Shown here: piece by piece, positions 3,712 to 11,356 of the stretch
Layout: each line of letters opens with the position of its first letter
Position numbering within the stretch: position 1 is the first letter of the stretch
Origin: Eubacteriales bacterium
GTDB lineage: Bacteria > Bacillota > Clostridia > Saccharofermentanales > UBA5734
Direction: 5' to 3'
Length of the DNA stretch: 32,852 nt
Assembly: GCA_028685755.1 (NCBI GenBank)
Contig: JAQUDJ010000010.1
Location: 1 to 32,852, forward strand
The notes under the pieces: generated by a model
Told to the model about the DNA's origin: nothing
Seen by the model: only the letters and a program-made list of their open reading frames with translations
Database searches by the model: none
Position numbers and translations under genes: made by a program

Positions 3712-4566
3712 ATGGCGCTTCTGAGCATGCTGTCCATGATTCCATTCGCGCTGAATGCTGCAACTGCTGAAACCCTCGCTGCAGATGCCGCCCAAGTCGT
3801 CGATGCCGTCGCCGAAGCATCCGTTGTTGCTGAACCGACCGGATTTGGAATAGTTTTGGACAAAATTGAATATTTTATCTTGATCCCTTGGGTCTATCTT
3901 TCGATTGCATTCATGATCTTTGGTATTATCTATCGGCTTGTTTCAATCTACCGGGCACCCAAGACCCCGTTTTCACTTAAAATTTACTCCTCCAAAAAGG
4001 AATCGCCGCTGAGTGCCTGGAATGACACCTTTATGTTGCCCCAGGTTCGCCGCAACAAGCCCTTTTTCTGGATAAGTTTGATGATCTTTCATATCTCCGG
4101 CGTCTTGTTGATCCTCGGCCACCTCGATATTCTGCCAACCATCAGCATCCTTTCTGAAGATTCTAAGCACATGATCGGTGCCGGTTTAGTTGGTGTTGGC
4201 TTCACGTTGCCACTCTTTCATTTTCTTTTCCGTCGCTTCAAAACCCCGATCCGTGAAATCACGGTACCAGCTGATTTTCTGCTGATCGTGCTTGTCCTGT
4301 TCTTAGCTTTGTTCGGCGATATGATCAGCTGGGGCAATTCCTGGACCGCTAACGGCTTTATTACGACCAAACAGAAATTTGCCGAATATTTCCAAGCACT
4401 GGCAACCTTCAATTTTGAGAATCCCCGTTATTATATTTGGAGCCCGCATTACCATTTCCTTGTCATCCATGTTGCATTAGCTAATCTTTTCTTCATGCTT
4501 GTACCATTTTCCAAGATCGTCCATGCCTTCTTCGCCATGCCGATCAATAAGCTGAGGAGGAAATAA
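3712..4566 (+). CDS. membrane cytochrome b-like subunit (nitrate reductase gamma / HdrE / DsrM-like)
   Basis: Multiple TM helices with several His residues (FHISGVLLILGHLD, FHFLFRRF, HYHFLVIHVALANLFFMLVPFSKIVHAF). GAGG RBS. Directly upstream of an HdrD-like gene. Confidence 0.8.
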   Translation: MALLSMLSMIPFALNAATAETLAADAAQVVDAVAEASVVAEPTGFGIVLDKIEYFILIPWVYLSIAFMIFGIIYRLVSIYRAPKTPFSLKIYSSKKESPLSAWNDTFMLPQVRRNKPFFWISLMIFHISGVLLILGHLDILPTISILSEDSKHMIGAGLVGVGFTLPLFHFLFRRFKTPIREITVPADFLLIVLVLFLALFGDMISWGNSWTANGFITTKQKFAEYFQALATFNFENPRYYIWSPHYHFLVIHVALANLFFMLVPFSKIVHAFFAMPINKLRRK

Positions 4567-4567
4567 G

Positions 4568-5812
4568 ATGGATCTGCAACAACAATACGAGCTCGAAAAA
4601 TTATTCAAGACTAAACTGCATCAGGCGATGCGCTTTTATCTTGAAACTTGCACCCACTGCGGCCTTTGTGTCGATTCGTGCCATGTTTACAATTCAATGC
4701 CTGAACTCCGTTATACTGCGGTTGGCCGATCTGAAGTTGTCCGCAAGATCTTCATCAAATACTTTAAAATGCAGGGCAAAATTGCGCCTTGGCTCGGTGA
4801 AACAATGGAAATGGACGAATTTGTCCTCGACAAATTCTATGAAGCCGCGTTCTCCTGCACCGGTTGCCGTCGCTGCATGGTACATTGCCCATTTGGCATT
4901 GATACCCAGCAGATTATGTCGATCGCTAAACTCTTACTAGTTGGTGCTGACAAAGAACCTAAAATCCTATCCATGTTATCTGACATGTCAATCAACAAAG
5001 GTGAACAGGTCGAAGAATCTCGCGCACAATATGCAGAAGCAATTAAAAATATTGAACCGGAAGTTGAAGCGATTTGGCCGACGCCCCCAGGCAAGAAAAC
5101 CATACCGTTAGAAGTCGAACATGCAGATGTCTTGTACGTCGCCCTCTCTGGCAAACATTCGATCATTTCAGCCGCTGCGATCTTCAACGCTGCGGATATC
5201 AATTGGACGCTCAGCTCCTTTGAAGCCGTCAATTTTGGCGCATTTCTCGGGGATCCCCAGCGCACCAAAAAAATCGGCAATCGGATAATTGCAGAAGCAA
5301 CTCGCCTCAAAGTCAAAACCGTGGCGATTGTCGAATGTGGTACCGCCTTCCGGATTATGAAACAGCAGTTTGGTAAATTACCTTTTGAGGTTGTGACCTT
5401 TGTCGAATTAATTGCAAAGTACCACCAAGAAGGAAAAATCAAACTTAATAAGGTCATGACGGAAAAGGTTACTTATCACGATCCGTGTCAGATCGCTCGC
5501 AATGCGGGTGTCTATGAGGCCCCTCGTTACATTTTGAACCAGCTTTCAGATGACTTTGTGGATATGATCCCGAATCGTGAAGAGAACTGGTGCTGTGGCG
5601 GCGGTGGAGGGCTAGTTGCAGCGGGCGATTTTGAATTCCGGATGAAATCATCGAAGGTCAAAGCTGACCAGATGAAAAAGACCGGCGCAACCGTTGTGGC
5701 GACCGCTTGCGAGAATTGCCATTCACAATTACACGATGTTTGTGGTTATTACAACACCAATCAACATGTCGAATTCATCTCACATCTAGCAGCCCAAGGT
5801 CTAGCAAAGTAA
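4568..5812 (+). CDS. (Fe-S)-binding heterodisulfide reductase-like subunit (HdrD/DsrK-like)
   Basis: Two 4Fe-4S motifs (CTHCGLCVDSCH, CTGCRRCMVHCP) and a C-terminal CCG-type motif (NWCCGGGGGLVAAGD...ACENCHSQL). Confidence 0.9.
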   Translation: MDLQQQYELEKLFKTKLHQAMRFYLETCTHCGLCVDSCHVYNSMPELRYTAVGRSEVVRKIFIKYFKMQGKIAPWLGETMEMDEFVLDKFYEAAFSCTGCRRCMVHCPFGIDTQQIMSIAKLLLVGADKEPKILSMLSDMSINKGEQVEESRAQYAEAIKNIEPEVEAIWPTPPGKKTIPLEVEHADVLYVALSGKHSIISAAAIFNAADINWTLSSFEAVNFGAFLGDPQRTKKIGNRIIAEATRLKVKTVAIVECGTAFRIMKQQFGKLPFEVVTFVELIAKYHQEGKIKLNKVMTEKVTYHDPCQIARNAGVYEAPRYILNQLSDDFVDMIPNREENWCCGGGGGLVAAGDFEFRMKSSKVKADQMKKTGATVVATACENCHSQLHDVCGYYNTNQHVEFISHLAAQGLAK

Positions 5813-5839
5813 TCTAGTTTCGGTTAGCTGCATCAAGAG

Positions 5840-5880
5840 CCTGCTGAATTTTTCTAACGGGTTCCGTTAAAAGGTGCAAA
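5840..5880 (+). repeat. left copy of 41-bp inverted repeat flanking the accessory island
   Basis: cctgctgaatttttctaacgggttccgttaaaaggtgcaaa; 36/41 identical to the reverse complement of 11199-11239. Confidence 0.9.
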
Positions 5881-5902
5881 ATCAAAAAAATATCCTATTC
5901 AC

Positions 5903-5941
5903 AAGATAAGTCGCATTTGACAAACAAGTGCGGCTTATCTT
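5903..5941 (+). terminator. strong hairpin, likely terminator of the sulfur operon
   Basis: AAGATAAGTCGCA-N13-TGCGGCTTATCTT, 13-bp stem with one G-T wobble; weak T tract. Confidence 0.6.
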
Positions 5942-6048
5942 TATATTCTGGCATTTCAGACATTATCTTATAGAATTTCTATTATTTCTCAATACAAATC
6001 GCAACGTGAAATATAGCAAGAATACGCGCATTCTTGATAATAATTATA

Positions 6049-6084
6049 TCGCGAAATATATCGTGAATTGTTATGTGAATTATC
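6049..6084 (+). repeat. three contiguous 12-bp iteron-like direct repeats (plus a related copy at 6004-6015)
   Basis: TCGCGAAATATA | TCGTGAATTGTT | ATGTGAATTATC at 6049, 6061 and 6073; ACGTGAAATATA at 6004-6015. Confidence 0.45.
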
Positions 6085-6206
6085 TAACAATGGGGTTATA
6101 ATGTTCTAGTAAGCACTGACGTTATTGGATTTCCTGTCAATAATAATTTACATCACATCATCATTATAAAGTAATAAAATTAGGATGTAAACTTTATAGA
6201 GAATTT

Positions 6207-6596
6207 TTGGAGGTAATCATGGAGCCGTTGATACCGAGAAGACAGGACCTGGTTAAGGTCGATTGGAAGATTTCCAGAGAACTTAAAGGGTTGATTAGTG
6301 AATACTCCAAGTACACAAATTATCCTGAAGAGGAGATTATCGAAAAGTTCATCAGCGAGATTAACAAGGACTCTGCTTTTCTCGAATGGGTGAAAAGCAA
6401 GAGGTTTACAAAACGGGCCAAACGTTACATATCACATGAAATTGCCCCGGAACCTCAAATCAATCTAAACGATGGAAAAATGGCAACGAAAAGGATTTCC
6501 ACACGCAAAAAGAAGTCCTCGTCTTCGGCTGACAAGGACGTTCCAGGAAACTTTTTACTTGAAGAGGACGAAGATTATATTGATTCCGAATCTTAA
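6207..6596 (+). CDS. small hypothetical protein, probable companion of the downstream transposase-like gene
   Basis: ATG at 6207 (alternative at 6219) after GGAGG; basic middle section and acidic C-terminus; stop lies 8 nt before the next ORF. Confidence 0.6.
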   Translation: MEVIMEPLIPRRQDLVKVDWKISRELKGLISEYSKYTNYPEEEIIEKFISEINKDSAFLEWVKSKRFTKRAKRYISHEIAPEPQINLNDGKMATKRISTRKKKSSSSADKDVPGNFLLEEDEDYIDSES

Positions 6597-6604
6597 CAAC
6601 AGTC

Positions 6605-8563
6605 TTGAGGGCAACTGGTATGAGAAAACGAAGCAGACTAATAAAGACCGACGAAATAAACGTTGTTTGTCACGGGCCATTCGGAGATGATGTCCTCCTT
6701 GCGAGAGACACGGAATACCCCGTTTTGTCTGATGACCAGTTTCGAAAGAAATATCGGCATTATGTTTTTAAGCCGGCATCTATTGAGATTGATGGAAAAG
6801 AACTTGAAATCCAGTTGAATTTTTGTAACGACACATTTTGTGACAATTACTTCCTTGAACAACACAGATTTTCAAAACTGAAAGGGAAACCATCCAGATA
6901 TAAGATGGATGGGCAGAGCGATGATACCCGACTAAAGTGTAATAGTGTTTCTTACTTGGCACACCCGCTGTATCCGATACCTCACAACACTTCATTGATT
7001 TCAAATTGGTCGGTAGCCGAGGAGATAAAAAGGCTTCTCGTCCTTGAAACAATAATCCCTGATATCAAGATATATGAGTTTCATCATCCAGGATGTAGCA
7101 ATGCTGCGGCCAACCCTCTTGATAACATTGACCTGTTTTACAGAAAGGGAATCACTACGGGTAAGTGTCGCAAATATCAATGTAAGGAATGCATGAAGTC
7201 GACCAATGTTCGGCCTGAATTACATGAACGTCATAATTTTCGCCAAAAAAGAAATGATGTTTTAGTGCCCTTAATGACCCAGTTGTTTACCAAGAACAAC
7301 GTTAAGGGGATGATGGAAAATCTTGATATGGGTGCCAGCACCTTCTATCACAAACTCGAATGGCTTTACCGAAAATGCCTGGAATTCAACGCGATATATG
7401 AAGCAGGTCCCTTAAAGTCGAAGACCTTTGATGAACTATGGTTAAACACCGACTCTTTGATTTATAACCTGAACAATATCCGAATGAGAGGGCATGGGGT
7501 ATATAACCCCAAAAACAAACTTGATAAGCTGCCGGCAACCAATATCATCGGTAGCGCCGATTTAAAATCTGGATACGTGTTCAGGCTTGATATCGCATAT
7601 GATTCCAAGGTTTCGCTTGAGCAAATTGAGGAGGATACGAAAAATTTCCATTGCGACCATTCAAACTTCTTTTTGCGAAAAAACGAAAGACTATCATACC
7701 CTTTCTGCCCACAACCCCCAACGGCCCATGACACCCAAAGCATTGCAGAATATATGAAGGAGCTGGAATCCTTTAATTATAGGAAAAACTATGTTCCGGG
7801 TTCTCATGTCAAAATGCAGTATACAGCTGCTGCCCATTATTTTTTACTGAATAAGACTTTGAAAGTGAAGCAGTATTACTTTGTATCTGATAACGACAGC
7901 ACTTTGCAATCTGCCATTTTTAAAATATTTGCAAAGCATTTTTCAGACGGTTATGCTGATTATTTCGTTTGCCAAACGGACAAGACTCAAACTCTCCAGG
8001 AAGCATATAACAATTCACGAAATGCTCGTACAGAACTTCTTGAATGGGCTGCAACTAATGGAGTTAAGACCCGCAGCATATGGGAAAAGGCTAAGGCCAA
8101 ACTTCATGAAGATTTGAAATCCCATAAATTTTATAATGAAAAGACTGTCAACGGGCATCTTGTATACTCAATGGGAAGCAACCCTATTAAGCATCCCCTC
8201 CCGAGCCTTGATGAAGGCATACGCAAAATCAATTTGATTAATTTCACACAGCATTACAGTACAAAAGAACTTGCCGACTTGATTATTCAAGTAAACAGCA
8301 GGGCCATAAACAACGCATTTCAACTTATTCATCGAAAAATTTCCTTACTTGAAAGGCCGCTGGTGACGTCGCGAGGCGATGGGAAAAGCTACATTTATGC
8401 CAATTACAACCCCCGGTACGCCATGCAGATTCTGACCATTTTCCGCACATATTACAATTTCTGCAAGACAATGAAATATGCTGGTGTCAAAATGACACCG
8501 GCTCAAAGGCTTGGATTGACAAACAAAGTGTTTGATATCAAGGAGATTATTTTTTTGGATTGA
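6605..8563 (+). CDS. large transposase-like protein with IS1/InsA-like zinc-binding N-terminal part and DDE-like core
   Basis: Cys/His-rich HHPGCSN...RKGITTGKCRKYQCKECMKST, acidic candidates NTDSLIY and SDNDSTL, and C-terminal RTYYNFCKTMKYAGVKMTPAQRLGLTNKVF resembling transposase C-termini. Start may be 6620. Confidence 0.6.
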   Translation: MRATGMRKRSRLIKTDEINVVCHGPFGDDVLLARDTEYPVLSDDQFRKKYRHYVFKPASIEIDGKELEIQLNFCNDTFCDNYFLEQHRFSKLKGKPSRYKMDGQSDDTRLKCNSVSYLAHPLYPIPHNTSLISNWSVAEEIKRLLVLETIIPDIKIYEFHHPGCSNAAANPLDNIDLFYRKGITTGKCRKYQCKECMKSTNVRPELHERHNFRQKRNDVLVPLMTQLFTKNNVKGMMENLDMGASTFYHKLEWLYRKCLEFNAIYEAGPLKSKTFDELWLNTDSLIYNLNNIRMRGHGVYNPKNKLDKLPATNIIGSADLKSGYVFRLDIAYDSKVSLEQIEEDTKNFHCDHSNFFLRKNERLSYPFCPQPPTAHDTQSIAEYMKELESFNYRKNYVPGSHVKMQYTAAAHYFLLNKTLKVKQYYFVSDNDSTLQSAIFKIFAKHFSDGYADYFVCQTDKTQTLQEAYNNSRNARTELLEWAATNGVKTRSIWEKAKAKLHEDLKSHKFYNEKTVNGHLVYSMGSNPIKHPLPSLDEGIRKINLINFTQHYSTKELADLIIQVNSRAINNAFQLIHRKISLLERPLVTSRGDGKSYIYANYNPRYAMQILTIFRTYYNFCKTMKYAGVKMTPAQRLGLTNKVFDIKEIIFLD

Positions 8564-8735
8564 TGTCAAATCCATGGCAAATTATCGCTGTGAAAATTGA
8601 AAGTGATATCTACGCTTAATACTATAATAAATTATTTGATTATAATAGAATTGTAAATAATGGTCAGACTGCACGAAATCGGTCGCTAAGTTTAAGTTTG
8701 CAATTGACGGATATGCGAATGTTTTAGGAGTCAGC

Positions 8736-9227
8736 ATGAAGAGATTATCGATTATTCTAATTGTTTTAATCATGGGTGTCAGCGGGTGCTCGAGCAAATC
8801 TACCGAAATGAAAAGTACAGACGTCATTTCAGGGTATCTATTTATTATTGACCAGTTATTCGCGCAAGCCCACAATGATATTGAGAACAATGACATGAAA
8901 TATTTGGCTGTAGACACCACTCAAATGATTGAAATGAATGAAGCTGATAAGGCTCAACTGCTTTCAAGACTTTCAGAAAAATATGGTTATGAGCTGTTGG
9001 ATAAAACTTATGAACAACTGGTCAGGGAGAATCTAATTGTTAATAACGTATTTTCTAATGGCGCCTTAATTCAAATTAAAAATATCACGTTAAAAGCAAG
9101 TACAATCACTGCTGATGCTTCCATTTACTTTGCCGCTTTGGGTGGCCATGGGTTTAACAGAGTACAAATTGAATTTTCAAATGGTCAATGGCAAATACAA
9201 AAAACAGGTGAGACCTGGGTTGCATAG
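8736..9227 (+). CDS. small predicted lipoprotein, unknown function
   Basis: Lipoprotein signal MKRLSIILIVLIMGVSGCSS; preceded by TAGGAG. Confidence 0.7.
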   Translation: MKRLSIILIVLIMGVSGCSSKSTEMKSTDVISGYLFIIDQLFAQAHNDIENNDMKYLAVDTTQMIEMNEADKAQLLSRLSEKYGYELLDKTYEQLVRENLIVNNVFSNGALIQIKNITLKASTITADASIYFAALGGHGFNRVQIEFSNGQWQIQKTGETWVA

Positions 9228-9244
9228 TCAAATATTTGGACTTT

Positions 9245-9270
9245 ATTCGAAATTGGCGGATAGTACGAAG
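9245..9270 (-). repeat. 26-bp intergenic motif, copy 1
   Basis: attcgaaattggcggatagtacgaag; related to the reverse complements of 10097-10122 and 10936-10961. Confidence 0.5.
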
Positions 9271-9404
9271 GAATAGCTATTGAGTTTACACCCAGAAACC
9301 TGATTTTCCATGTGCAACAAACATGCTACCAATAGTTGCGAAATAGTTGGTAGTAGAAACCAGTTTTGTTTTGATACATTTTTGGAACAAGGAGGAATAA
9401 ATAT

Positions 9405-9749
9405 ATGTCAATCGTTGCGTCAAGTATAGCTCTATTATTCGGACTATCATTAATGGCCCTGTTTGTTTTCTTAATTATTCTGATTATACGTGCTCTTTTG
9501 AAATACATTAACTCGAAAGATGTTCGAAAAGAAAAATCAGAAGCACGTAGGTCTATTGGACAAGTATTAAAGCAGCACCGAACTAGCTGCAAAATAACAC
9601 AAGAATTTGTAGCTGAAACCATTGGAGTGAGCAGGCAAGCAGTATCGAAATGGGAAAGCGGAACGTCCGACCCAAGTACATCAAATTTACTCGCACTCGC
9701 AAAACTGTATGGCATATCAGCAGAGGAATTGCTGAAAGAAATTGAATAA
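9405..9749 (+). CDS. membrane-anchored XRE-family HTH regulator (N-terminal TM, C-terminal HTH)
   Basis: N-terminal hydrophobic helix then IGQVLKQHRTSCKITQEFVAETIGVSRQAVSKWESGTSDPSTSNLLALAKLYG; GGAGG RBS. Confidence 0.85.
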   Translation: MSIVASSIALLFGLSLMALFVFLIILIIRALLKYINSKDVRKEKSEARRSIGQVLKQHRTSCKITQEFVAETIGVSRQAVSKWESGTSDPSTSNLLALAKLYGISAEELLKEIE

Positions 9750-9795
9750 GCGAAAATAATATTCATCAACCGCAAATCAAAGAAGGAAAATCAAA

Positions 9796-10050
9796 ATGAA
9801 CATACGAAAAATTACAAATTTATCCGAAGCACTAATGATTATTGGAGCTCTGTTGGCATTTCTTCTCTATGCTATTCCAGAAGTGAACATTTATTTTGGA
9901 ATCATCATACTATTTTCTGCTGCAGCTATTGTAGCCGGAATGTATTTGAAGTTCAAATATTACAGATGCCCGCATTGTCATTCACTTTTGCCTTTGAGAA
10001 CATCTTCATTTCCTGTGTACTGCCCCGAATGCGGGGAAAAAATCGAATAA
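9796..10050 (+). CDS. small membrane protein with C-terminal zinc ribbon
   Basis: Two hydrophobic segments then YRCPHCHSLLPLRTSSFPVYCPECGEKIE (CPxC...CPEC). Confidence 0.75.
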   Translation: MNIRKITNLSEALMIIGALLAFLLYAIPEVNIYFGIIILFSAAAIVAGMYLKFKYYRCPHCHSLLPLRTSSFPVYCPECGEKIE

Positions 10051-10096
10051 TGTGTTTTTAAGCAAGAATTTGCTTTTTGCCAGCAAATGTTGAGTA

Positions 10097-10122
10097 TTTC
10101 GTACTAGGCCGCTATTGAGAAC
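10097..10122 (+). repeat. 26-bp intergenic motif, copy 2
   Basis: tttcgtactaggccgctattgagaac; 20/26 identical to 10936-10961. Confidence 0.55.
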
Positions 10123-10184
10123 AAAGTGAATTCATATCTTATGACAATTAAAGTGTTTACATTGACTGATAGGGAGATAATACT

Positions 10185-10871
10185 ATGCAATCAAGACATA
10201 TACTGATTTTAAGTATTATGGTTGTTTTTTCATTATTAATTGTTGGTTGCAATGTTAAAGACCAAACTGGTTTAGAAAATATTAGACAAGAAATTAATGG
10301 GCTGAAGGCAGATGCTTTGCAACAGGAAATTTTGTTAGAGAATATCGAAATTTCAATCAAAGACATAGAGGCATTGAAAGCTCAAAATGATGAATTGAAA
10401 AGAGAGATATTGAGACTCGACGAATTAATCAATTTGAATGAATCGCATGGAGATTTAACTCAGTTGACTCTTCATGAGCAAGAGAAATATGAAGAATTCA
10501 AGACGTCATATGATGATGTTGTTTTAGTTGGTCTAAAACCAATCTCAGTTTGCAAAATGTATCTTTATGCTTCACTTGTTAAAGAATATGAAACTGAATA
10601 TGAACTGTATACCACAAATGAAGCATCTGTACTTTGGTCAAAAGAAGAGGATAAGAATATTCCAAACGAACACAGATTGCAGGAATTCGATATTTTTAAG
10701 GATATTTACGATGTTGGCATTATATTTTCAGAATCCAACGCAGAACAGGCAACAATAACTTGGAAAAGTAAGAATGGAAATGCTGATGAAAAACTGGGTG
10801 CAATAACCTATGGATTCAGTTTAGTGAAAGATGGCGATGCTTGGAAAGTGAATTTCCTGCCGATGCAATAG
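10185..10871 (+). CDS. predicted lipoprotein with coiled-coil region
   Basis: Signal/lipobox SLLIVGCN, followed by a Leu/Glu-rich heptad-like segment. Confidence 0.7.
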   Translation: MQSRHILILSIMVVFSLLIVGCNVKDQTGLENIRQEINGLKADALQQEILLENIEISIKDIEALKAQNDELKREILRLDELINLNESHGDLTQLTLHEQEKYEEFKTSYDDVVLVGLKPISVCKMYLYASLVKEYETEYELYTTNEASVLWSKEEDKNIPNEHRLQEFDIFKDIYDVGIIFSESNAEQATITWKSKNGNADEKLGAITYGFSLVKDGDAWKVNFLPMQ

Positions 10872-10935
10872 AATAGGATTAGATATCAACGAGTTGATTT
10901 ATGGTTAGATTATTCGAGAAGGATGCAAAAGCCAT

Positions 10936-10961
10936 CTTCGCACTTAGCCGCTATTACGAAC
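10936..10961 (+). repeat. 26-bp intergenic motif, copy 3
   Basis: cttcgcacttagccgctattacgaac. Confidence 0.55.
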
Positions 10962-11089
10962 TGTAAATCAACAAACACTAACCAGCACATTCGAAGTCTT
11001 CAAGCTTTTATATGGAAGTGTCTGAAATCAACATAATTGTCTATTGCTGCCATTATCTTAAAGATATATTTTCCATTGATTTTAAAATG

Positions 11090-11124
11090 AAAAGGGCCGG
11101 CGGCATAACCGCTGACCCTTTTTT
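11090..11124 (+). terminator. rho-independent terminator
   Basis: GGGCCGGCGG-cataa-CCGCTGACCC followed by TTTTTT. Confidence 0.75.
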
Positions 11125-11198
11125 GGTACAAACTTAATGTATTAAATTGTTGTGCATTGATTCATGGCTTTTACTGTGAATTATCTGATAATTTCAAA

Positions 11199-11239
11199 TT
11201 TGCACCCGTTAACGGAACCCGTTAGAATTTTTCAGCAGG
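11199..11239 (-). repeat. right copy of 41-bp inverted repeat flanking the accessory island
   Basis: tttgcacccgttaacggaacccgttagaatttttcagcagg. Confidence 0.9.
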
Positions 11240-11356
11240 TTTTTTTATGTAACGATGAATACGGCGGATAACTTGTCGAATGCTATACTGTAAAAAACTC
11301 GCAAATTTCCCACATAAGCCGAACATTTCTCAAACCATGAGAAAGCTGAATACGCG

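Follow-up and report, generated by a model that had tools for sequence, protein, structure and literature searches.

The closest described relative of the element reported here is the dfrG transposon Tn7491, which spreads resistance to trimethoprim and was first described inside Tn6198. Its ends and 9-bp duplication are on record, as is one copy that lies between convergent genes, and its transposition is supported by genome comparison (PMC10763498). Terminators are also used as targets by IS1272/TnSha1 of the IS1182 family, whose target hairpins include many transcription terminators (PMC4923244, PMC5678879), and by bacterial class C group II introns, which use rho-independent terminators as low-harm insertion sites (PMC8919778). 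Here, we analysed a stretch of 32,852 nucleotides (the window) from a Eubacteriales bacterium (contig JAQUDJ010000010.1), in which an island of accessory genes lies between a sulfur operon and a GGDEF gene. The island is very probably (about 87% for all parts of the reading together) a single transposon of the Tn7491 family that inserted into a host terminator, centred on its loop, and carries terminator-like hairpins of its own at its ends.

The transposon extends from 5855 to 11224, a length of 5,370 bp. As far as the nucleotide sequence can establish it, the element consists of 26-bp ends, subterminal motifs, a two-gene module and four passenger genes, within an exact 9-bp duplication. Its borders are as follows.

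5846..5854, forward strand: target-site duplication, left copy, 9 bp, GAATTTTTC
5855..5880, forward strand: left terminal inverted repeat, 26 bp, TAACGGGTTCCGTTAAAAGGTGCAAA (comparison of family ends)
11199..11224, reverse strand: right terminal inverted repeat, 26 bp (comparison of family ends)
11225..11233, forward strand: target-site duplication, right copy, 9 bp, GAATTTTTC

The original prediction had reported 41-bp inverted repeats at the island edges, 5840-5880 and 11199-11239. These are present, with 36/41 identical positions (88%, E 2.4e-8 in a similarity search), and a repeat search stretches the arms to 5835-5887 and 11192-11244 at 81% identity. Each repeat contains one copy of the palindrome TAACGG-N3-CCGTTA, as described, and the window has no others. 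The repeats are composite: the inner 26 bp are the transposon end (24/26 identical between the two sides), and the outer 15 bp on each side are host DNA, namely the two arms into which the insertion split an intrinsic terminator that follows the HdrD-like gene. The mobile element suggested at the outset is thus upheld, and its supposed long terminal repeats resolve into 26-bp ends plus the split host arms. The statement that there was no target-site duplication proved wrong, as the two copies of GAATTTTTC match at 9/9 positions; being almost a palindrome, GAATTTTTC blends into the inverted repeat, which is why the copies were overlooked. Nothing had been said of the transposase (6605-8563), the duplication or the terminator.

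Another suggestion was that the island is a capture between two copies of a host repeat dispersed in the genome, which would be a case of homologous recombination; accessory genes bordered by two similar inverted repeats do have that appearance. The 41-bp repeat, however, is found only at these two places in the 2.04-Mb host assembly, so it is not dispersed. The island also has an exact 9-bp duplication and its own transposase, and related elements elsewhere have like ends, duplications and sites, the end type being shared by other genera. We consider such a capture extremely improbable. A composite transposon, or an island captured by repeats in general, was rejected as well: there is one transposase copy and there are two repeat copies in the genome, and the borders are not full insertion sequences or multi-copy repeats.

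The two-gene module comprises the following genes.

6219..6596, forward strand: small accessory protein, 125 amino acids (aa), upstream of the transposase (family conservation)
6605..8563, forward strand: transposase, 652 aa (homology, alignment, structure prediction)

The transposase, whose conserved ATG start is probably at 6620, resembles an “insertion element protein” (40% identity over 99% of the query) found in 115 plasmid records, mostly from Enterococcus and Staphylococcus. This protein adjoins dfrG in the regions examined, and the relative is the transposon registered as Tn7491. The window element and Tn7491 thus have in common a homologous transposase of ~650 aa, the small open reading frame (ORF) upstream of it, a 9-bp duplication and family-type ends, those of Tn7491 being 26-27 bp long and related to the window's (TAAGTAGTTCAGTTTTGGAGTACAAAA). 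Tn7491 also has a left-end hairpin with its apex at 63.5 bp, and several of its copies lie in terminator loops (L011, L044, L096, L099, L100, L102); it differs from the window element in cargo and host. The published ends and duplication agree with our measurements. Since Tn7491 is an already described member, the window element does not found a new family. The words terminator, hairpin and stem are absent from the Tn7491 paper (PMC10763498), and the loop duplication, the target preference, the end hairpins, the motif array and the breadth of the family appear to be undescribed in the open-access literature searched.

The domain scan assigned no Pfam family to the transposase, and sequence searches of solved structures returned no relative. 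Its predicted structure is confident (mean predicted local distance difference test, pLDDT, 83.5), and the top fold matches are DDE transposases (ISCth4, Mos1, Tn5). Three residues, D283, D429 and E583, are invariant in 33 aligned members and placed as a DDE triad would be, which makes them a candidate catalytic triad. A zinc ribbon and helix-turn-helix segment lies at residues ~164-250, and the stretch around residues 164-290 resembles the corresponding part of InsA from IS1 (hhalign E 2.6e-5); sub-threshold IS1 matches in NCBIfam are found in 29/33 members, the best at 28.4 bits against a cut-off of 100. Membership of the IS1 family was rejected: the window protein has no match, no member reaches the curated cut-off, and an InsB-like catalytic domain found no match (hhalign E 0.078, probability <1%). 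IS1 makes mostly 9-bp duplications; the window family differs from it in its ~650-aa transposase, its cargo genes and its subterminal motif arrays. As for the small ORF, it precedes the transposase in many members and is homologous among 13 aligned (24-39% identity), with no Pfam or other family match. Its assignment as a ribbon-helix-helix protein was dropped, given a low-confidence and purely helical model and no family match.

In the host DNA, the two halves of the terminator lie on either side of the element.

5835..5848, forward strand: host intrinsic terminator, 5' arm, behind the HdrD-like gene, with its last 3 bases inside the duplication (sequence, repeats, fold)
11231..11244, forward strand: split host terminator, 3' arm, then the rest of the T-run, with its first 3 bases inside the duplication (sequence, repeats, fold)

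The stop codon of the HdrD-like gene ends at 5812, with the sulfur operon upstream of the island. When the element and one duplication are removed in silico, the flanks join as AAGAGCCTGCT-GAATTTTTC-AGCAGGTTTTTTT, a hairpin with a T-run, located 22 bp behind this stop codon. Once rejoined, the site has a folding energy of -18 kcal/mol (z -6.2), better than all 200 shuffles. By its borders, the window element is inserted at the loop of the predicted terminator behind the upstream sulfur operon; the empty site AGCCTGCTGAATTTTTCAGCAGGTTTTTTT between the HdrD-like and GGDEF genes is an in silico reconstruction.

This arrangement sets the family apart from the known terminator-directed elements. 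IS1272/TnSha1 removes the stem-loop without a duplication, whereas the window family keeps both arms and duplicates the loop. It looks like the hypothetical pathway c (Fig. 13 of PMC5678879), where joining takes place at the loop and leaves it duplicated. Identity with the IS1182 family was rejected, as the Pfam and NCBIfam scans gave no such transposase match, the arms are kept and the duplication is 9 bp. Class C group II introns are retroelements that insert just behind the terminator, while the window family inserts in the loop. Such an intron was rejected too: there was no Rfam intron match (the Rfam scan gave nothing credible) and no reverse transcriptase domain among the scanned ORFs.

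As for the wider family, one genome per species was scanned, which yielded 55 loci, apparently from Bacillota. These loci, the window and records from plasmids and phages together gave 44 delimited elements, with ends of the type TAACGGGTTCNGTT..GAGGTGCAAA or TAAGTAGTTCAGTT..GGAGNANAAA. Their duplications are exact 9 bp (36 elements), exact 10 bp (6) or near-exact 10 bp (2). The ends of L053, L056, L066, L071 and L072 were not resolved, the end pairs of L065 and L069 were not credible, L035 and L052 run into contig ends, and L031 has family ends with no duplication found. Element lengths range from 2.0 to 7.9 kb, and the cargo of most is a single gene or operon, of widely differing kinds. The kinds of cargo include restriction-modification, MFS, ABC/FtsX, P-type ATPase, GNAT, Nudix, GerA, SpoIIP, a MazF-like protein, SDR and epimerase. 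Within the window's phylum, 7/399 genomes surveyed have a match, its own genome included. One chromosome (genome G148) has two copies of a 6.6-kb member with different 10-bp duplications (L094 and L095), consistent with recent transposition within that genome.

The target sites of the 44 elements were rebuilt by rejoining the flanks with one duplication, and a terminator-like hairpin is found in 39/44. Its apex lies within 2.5 bp of the duplication centre at 37/44 sites, compared with 1.0% of 1,760 intergenic control positions from the same loci (Fisher p 3e-56), and in 33/44 the centre is at most 1 bp from the hairpin axis. By the duplex energy between the arms, an independent criterion, 38/44 sites fall under the 5th percentile of 3,300 controls, and 32/44 under the 1st percentile. 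Hairpin energy is maximal at the duplication axis and is down to background ~8 bp off. The flanking genes are tandem in 26 cases, convergent in 15 and divergent in 2 (n=43), as expected for insertion behind genes.

Three intact empty sites, exactly as rebuilt or nearly so, were also seen in the databases: in a staphylococcal phage region (99.7%), in a staphylococcal plasmid (100%) and in Pseudomonas plasmids (100%). The last belongs to a distant relative on a Pseudomonas aeruginosa plasmid (L025; CP136985, 5804-7813), only ~23% identical and with 26-bp ends, whose 9-bp duplication lies in a terminator hairpin. The target preference therefore reaches beyond Bacillota.

A different explanation for these sites is selection without targeting, in which insertion is widespread and the copies that last long enough to be observed are only those in harmless terminator regions. 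Of the 11 further sites in a hold-out set, eight belong to Tn7491 copies carried by plasmids and a phage. The sites of this set, mostly from recent copies, are strong hairpins less often (5/11) than those of the mainly chromosomal set (38/44 below the 5th percentile of controls), which speaks for selection. However, survival behind genes leaves the axis coincidence unexplained, given that hairpin strength is lost a few bp aside, and several recent Tn7491 copies (L096, L099, L100, L102) are exactly centred, with an offset of 0.0. Targeting is preferred because selection alone would not put the duplication on the hairpin axis within a base pair, and we find selection as the whole explanation rather improbable. 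Post-insertion selection probably adds to the preference in the older chromosomal set.

Several observations weigh against loop-centred insertion by a DDE transposon with its own terminators. Only 5/11 of the hold-out sites are strong centred hairpins and 6/11 are not, one of the weak ones sitting among phage structural genes; the preference is therefore strong, not absolute. The DDE transposases rank first among the fold matches, yet none reaches E 0.001. The left hairpin of the window element, though strong, is off the common symmetry axis of the family (4/12 pairs). All terminators are predictions from sequence. Lastly, the window's own empty site was not found among nine relatives searched, because only one of them (G010) has the HdrD-like gene, at 66% identity and in other surroundings; the synteny search with the GGDEF query matched many paralogues.

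The subterminal regions of the element contain the following features.

5897..5903, forward strand: subterminal motif ATTCACA (sequence; family motif)
5903..5941, forward strand: element-borne terminator-like hairpin, left end, reading inwards (-22.6 kcal/mol, z -9.8)
11091..11121, unstranded: element-borne terminator-like hairpin, right end, with T-runs on both strands (fold)
11175..11181, reverse strand: subterminal motif ATTCACA (sequence; family motif)

The “attcaca” blocks pointed out in the original prediction are part of a family-wide array. The motif WWTNRCA recurs 12 bp apart, at ~32, 44, 56, 68, 80, 91 and 103 bp from the right end and at 32, 44, 56 and 68 bp from the left end, and these motifs are candidate binding sites. 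Inward-reading hairpins with T-runs are found at the left end of 31/44 elements and at the right end of 35/44, compared with 4-7% of control windows. The left apex lies 62-64.5 bp from the end in nearly all elements, near 63.5 bp. The left stem covaries, with 366 paired cells vs 210 in shuffles, several pair types and compensating changes.

From the family as a whole, the following mechanism is proposed. The transposase would join the element to its target with a stagger of 9 or 10 bp, its midpoint at the hairpin apex of an intrinsic terminator. The loop would thereby be duplicated, with one stem arm left at each border. What is recognised may be the structure of the hairpin DNA, such as an extruded cruciform or single-stranded DNA. 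As terminators, the hairpins at the element's ends would stand in for the one that the insertion breaks and would protect the transposase gene against read-through. If this holds, insertion would be nearly harmless.

The end hairpins could instead be structures bound by the transposase or a regulator, in which case the transcription stop would not be restored. The left apex at a fixed ~63.5 bp from the end, as in a protein-DNA complex, and the frequent overlap of the left hairpin with a 12-bp-spaced motif speak for binding. On the other hand, the hairpins have T-runs, strong folds and compensating stem changes, and their sequences differ widely among elements. A binding role in place of termination seems less likely to us than termination, though it is a serious alternative.

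As for the cargo of the window element, four genes follow the transposase.

8736..9227, forward strand: predicted lipoprotein, 163 aa (weak LPAM_1)
9405..9749, forward strand: membrane-anchored HTH_3 regulator, 114 aa (PF01381, E 3.7e-17)
9796..10050, forward strand: small protein, 84 aa, with hydrophobic stretches and a CxxC...CxxC zinc-ribbon-like tail
10185..10871, forward strand: predicted lipoprotein, 228 aa, coiled-coil-like

Elsewhere in the host genome (contig C35, 226.9-231.4 kb; L111 3113-7389), small hypothetical genes are separated by a 24-bp palindrome, TTCGCAAT-N8-ATTGCGAA, with copies at 4382, 4801, 5290, 6115 and 7361 of L111. This region looks like a gene-cassette array and adjoins a serine recombinase (Resolvase and Recombinase domains); a search of the host genome gave no integron integrase above the cut-off. 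In the window transposon, the cargo genes are separated by degenerate copies of the palindrome at 9246-9269, 10098-10121 and 10937-10960, and possibly at 8697-8720, so the cargo may derive from such a palindrome-separated array. Further copies are present in same-genus genomes G001, G004 and G002 (L119 5239 and 5529, L120 5932, L121 66), in one case flanking a small ORF, and often near a contig end.

That most relatives occupy the same type of site suggests a way of inserting with little harm to the host. In its broadest form, the proposal is that a widespread, cargo-carrying DDE family reads terminator structure and not sequence, staggers its joining by 9-10 bp across the loop, replaces the broken terminator and so spreads genes, dfrG included, cheaply. 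We put this forward tentatively, at slightly less than even odds. If true, it would explain the landing sites of Tn7491 and its relatives, including dfrG copies on enterococcal and staphylococcal plasmids. It would also be a second, mechanistically different case of terminator-directed DNA transposition after IS1272: where IS1272 destroys the hairpin, the window family would duplicate the loop and bring hairpins of its own.

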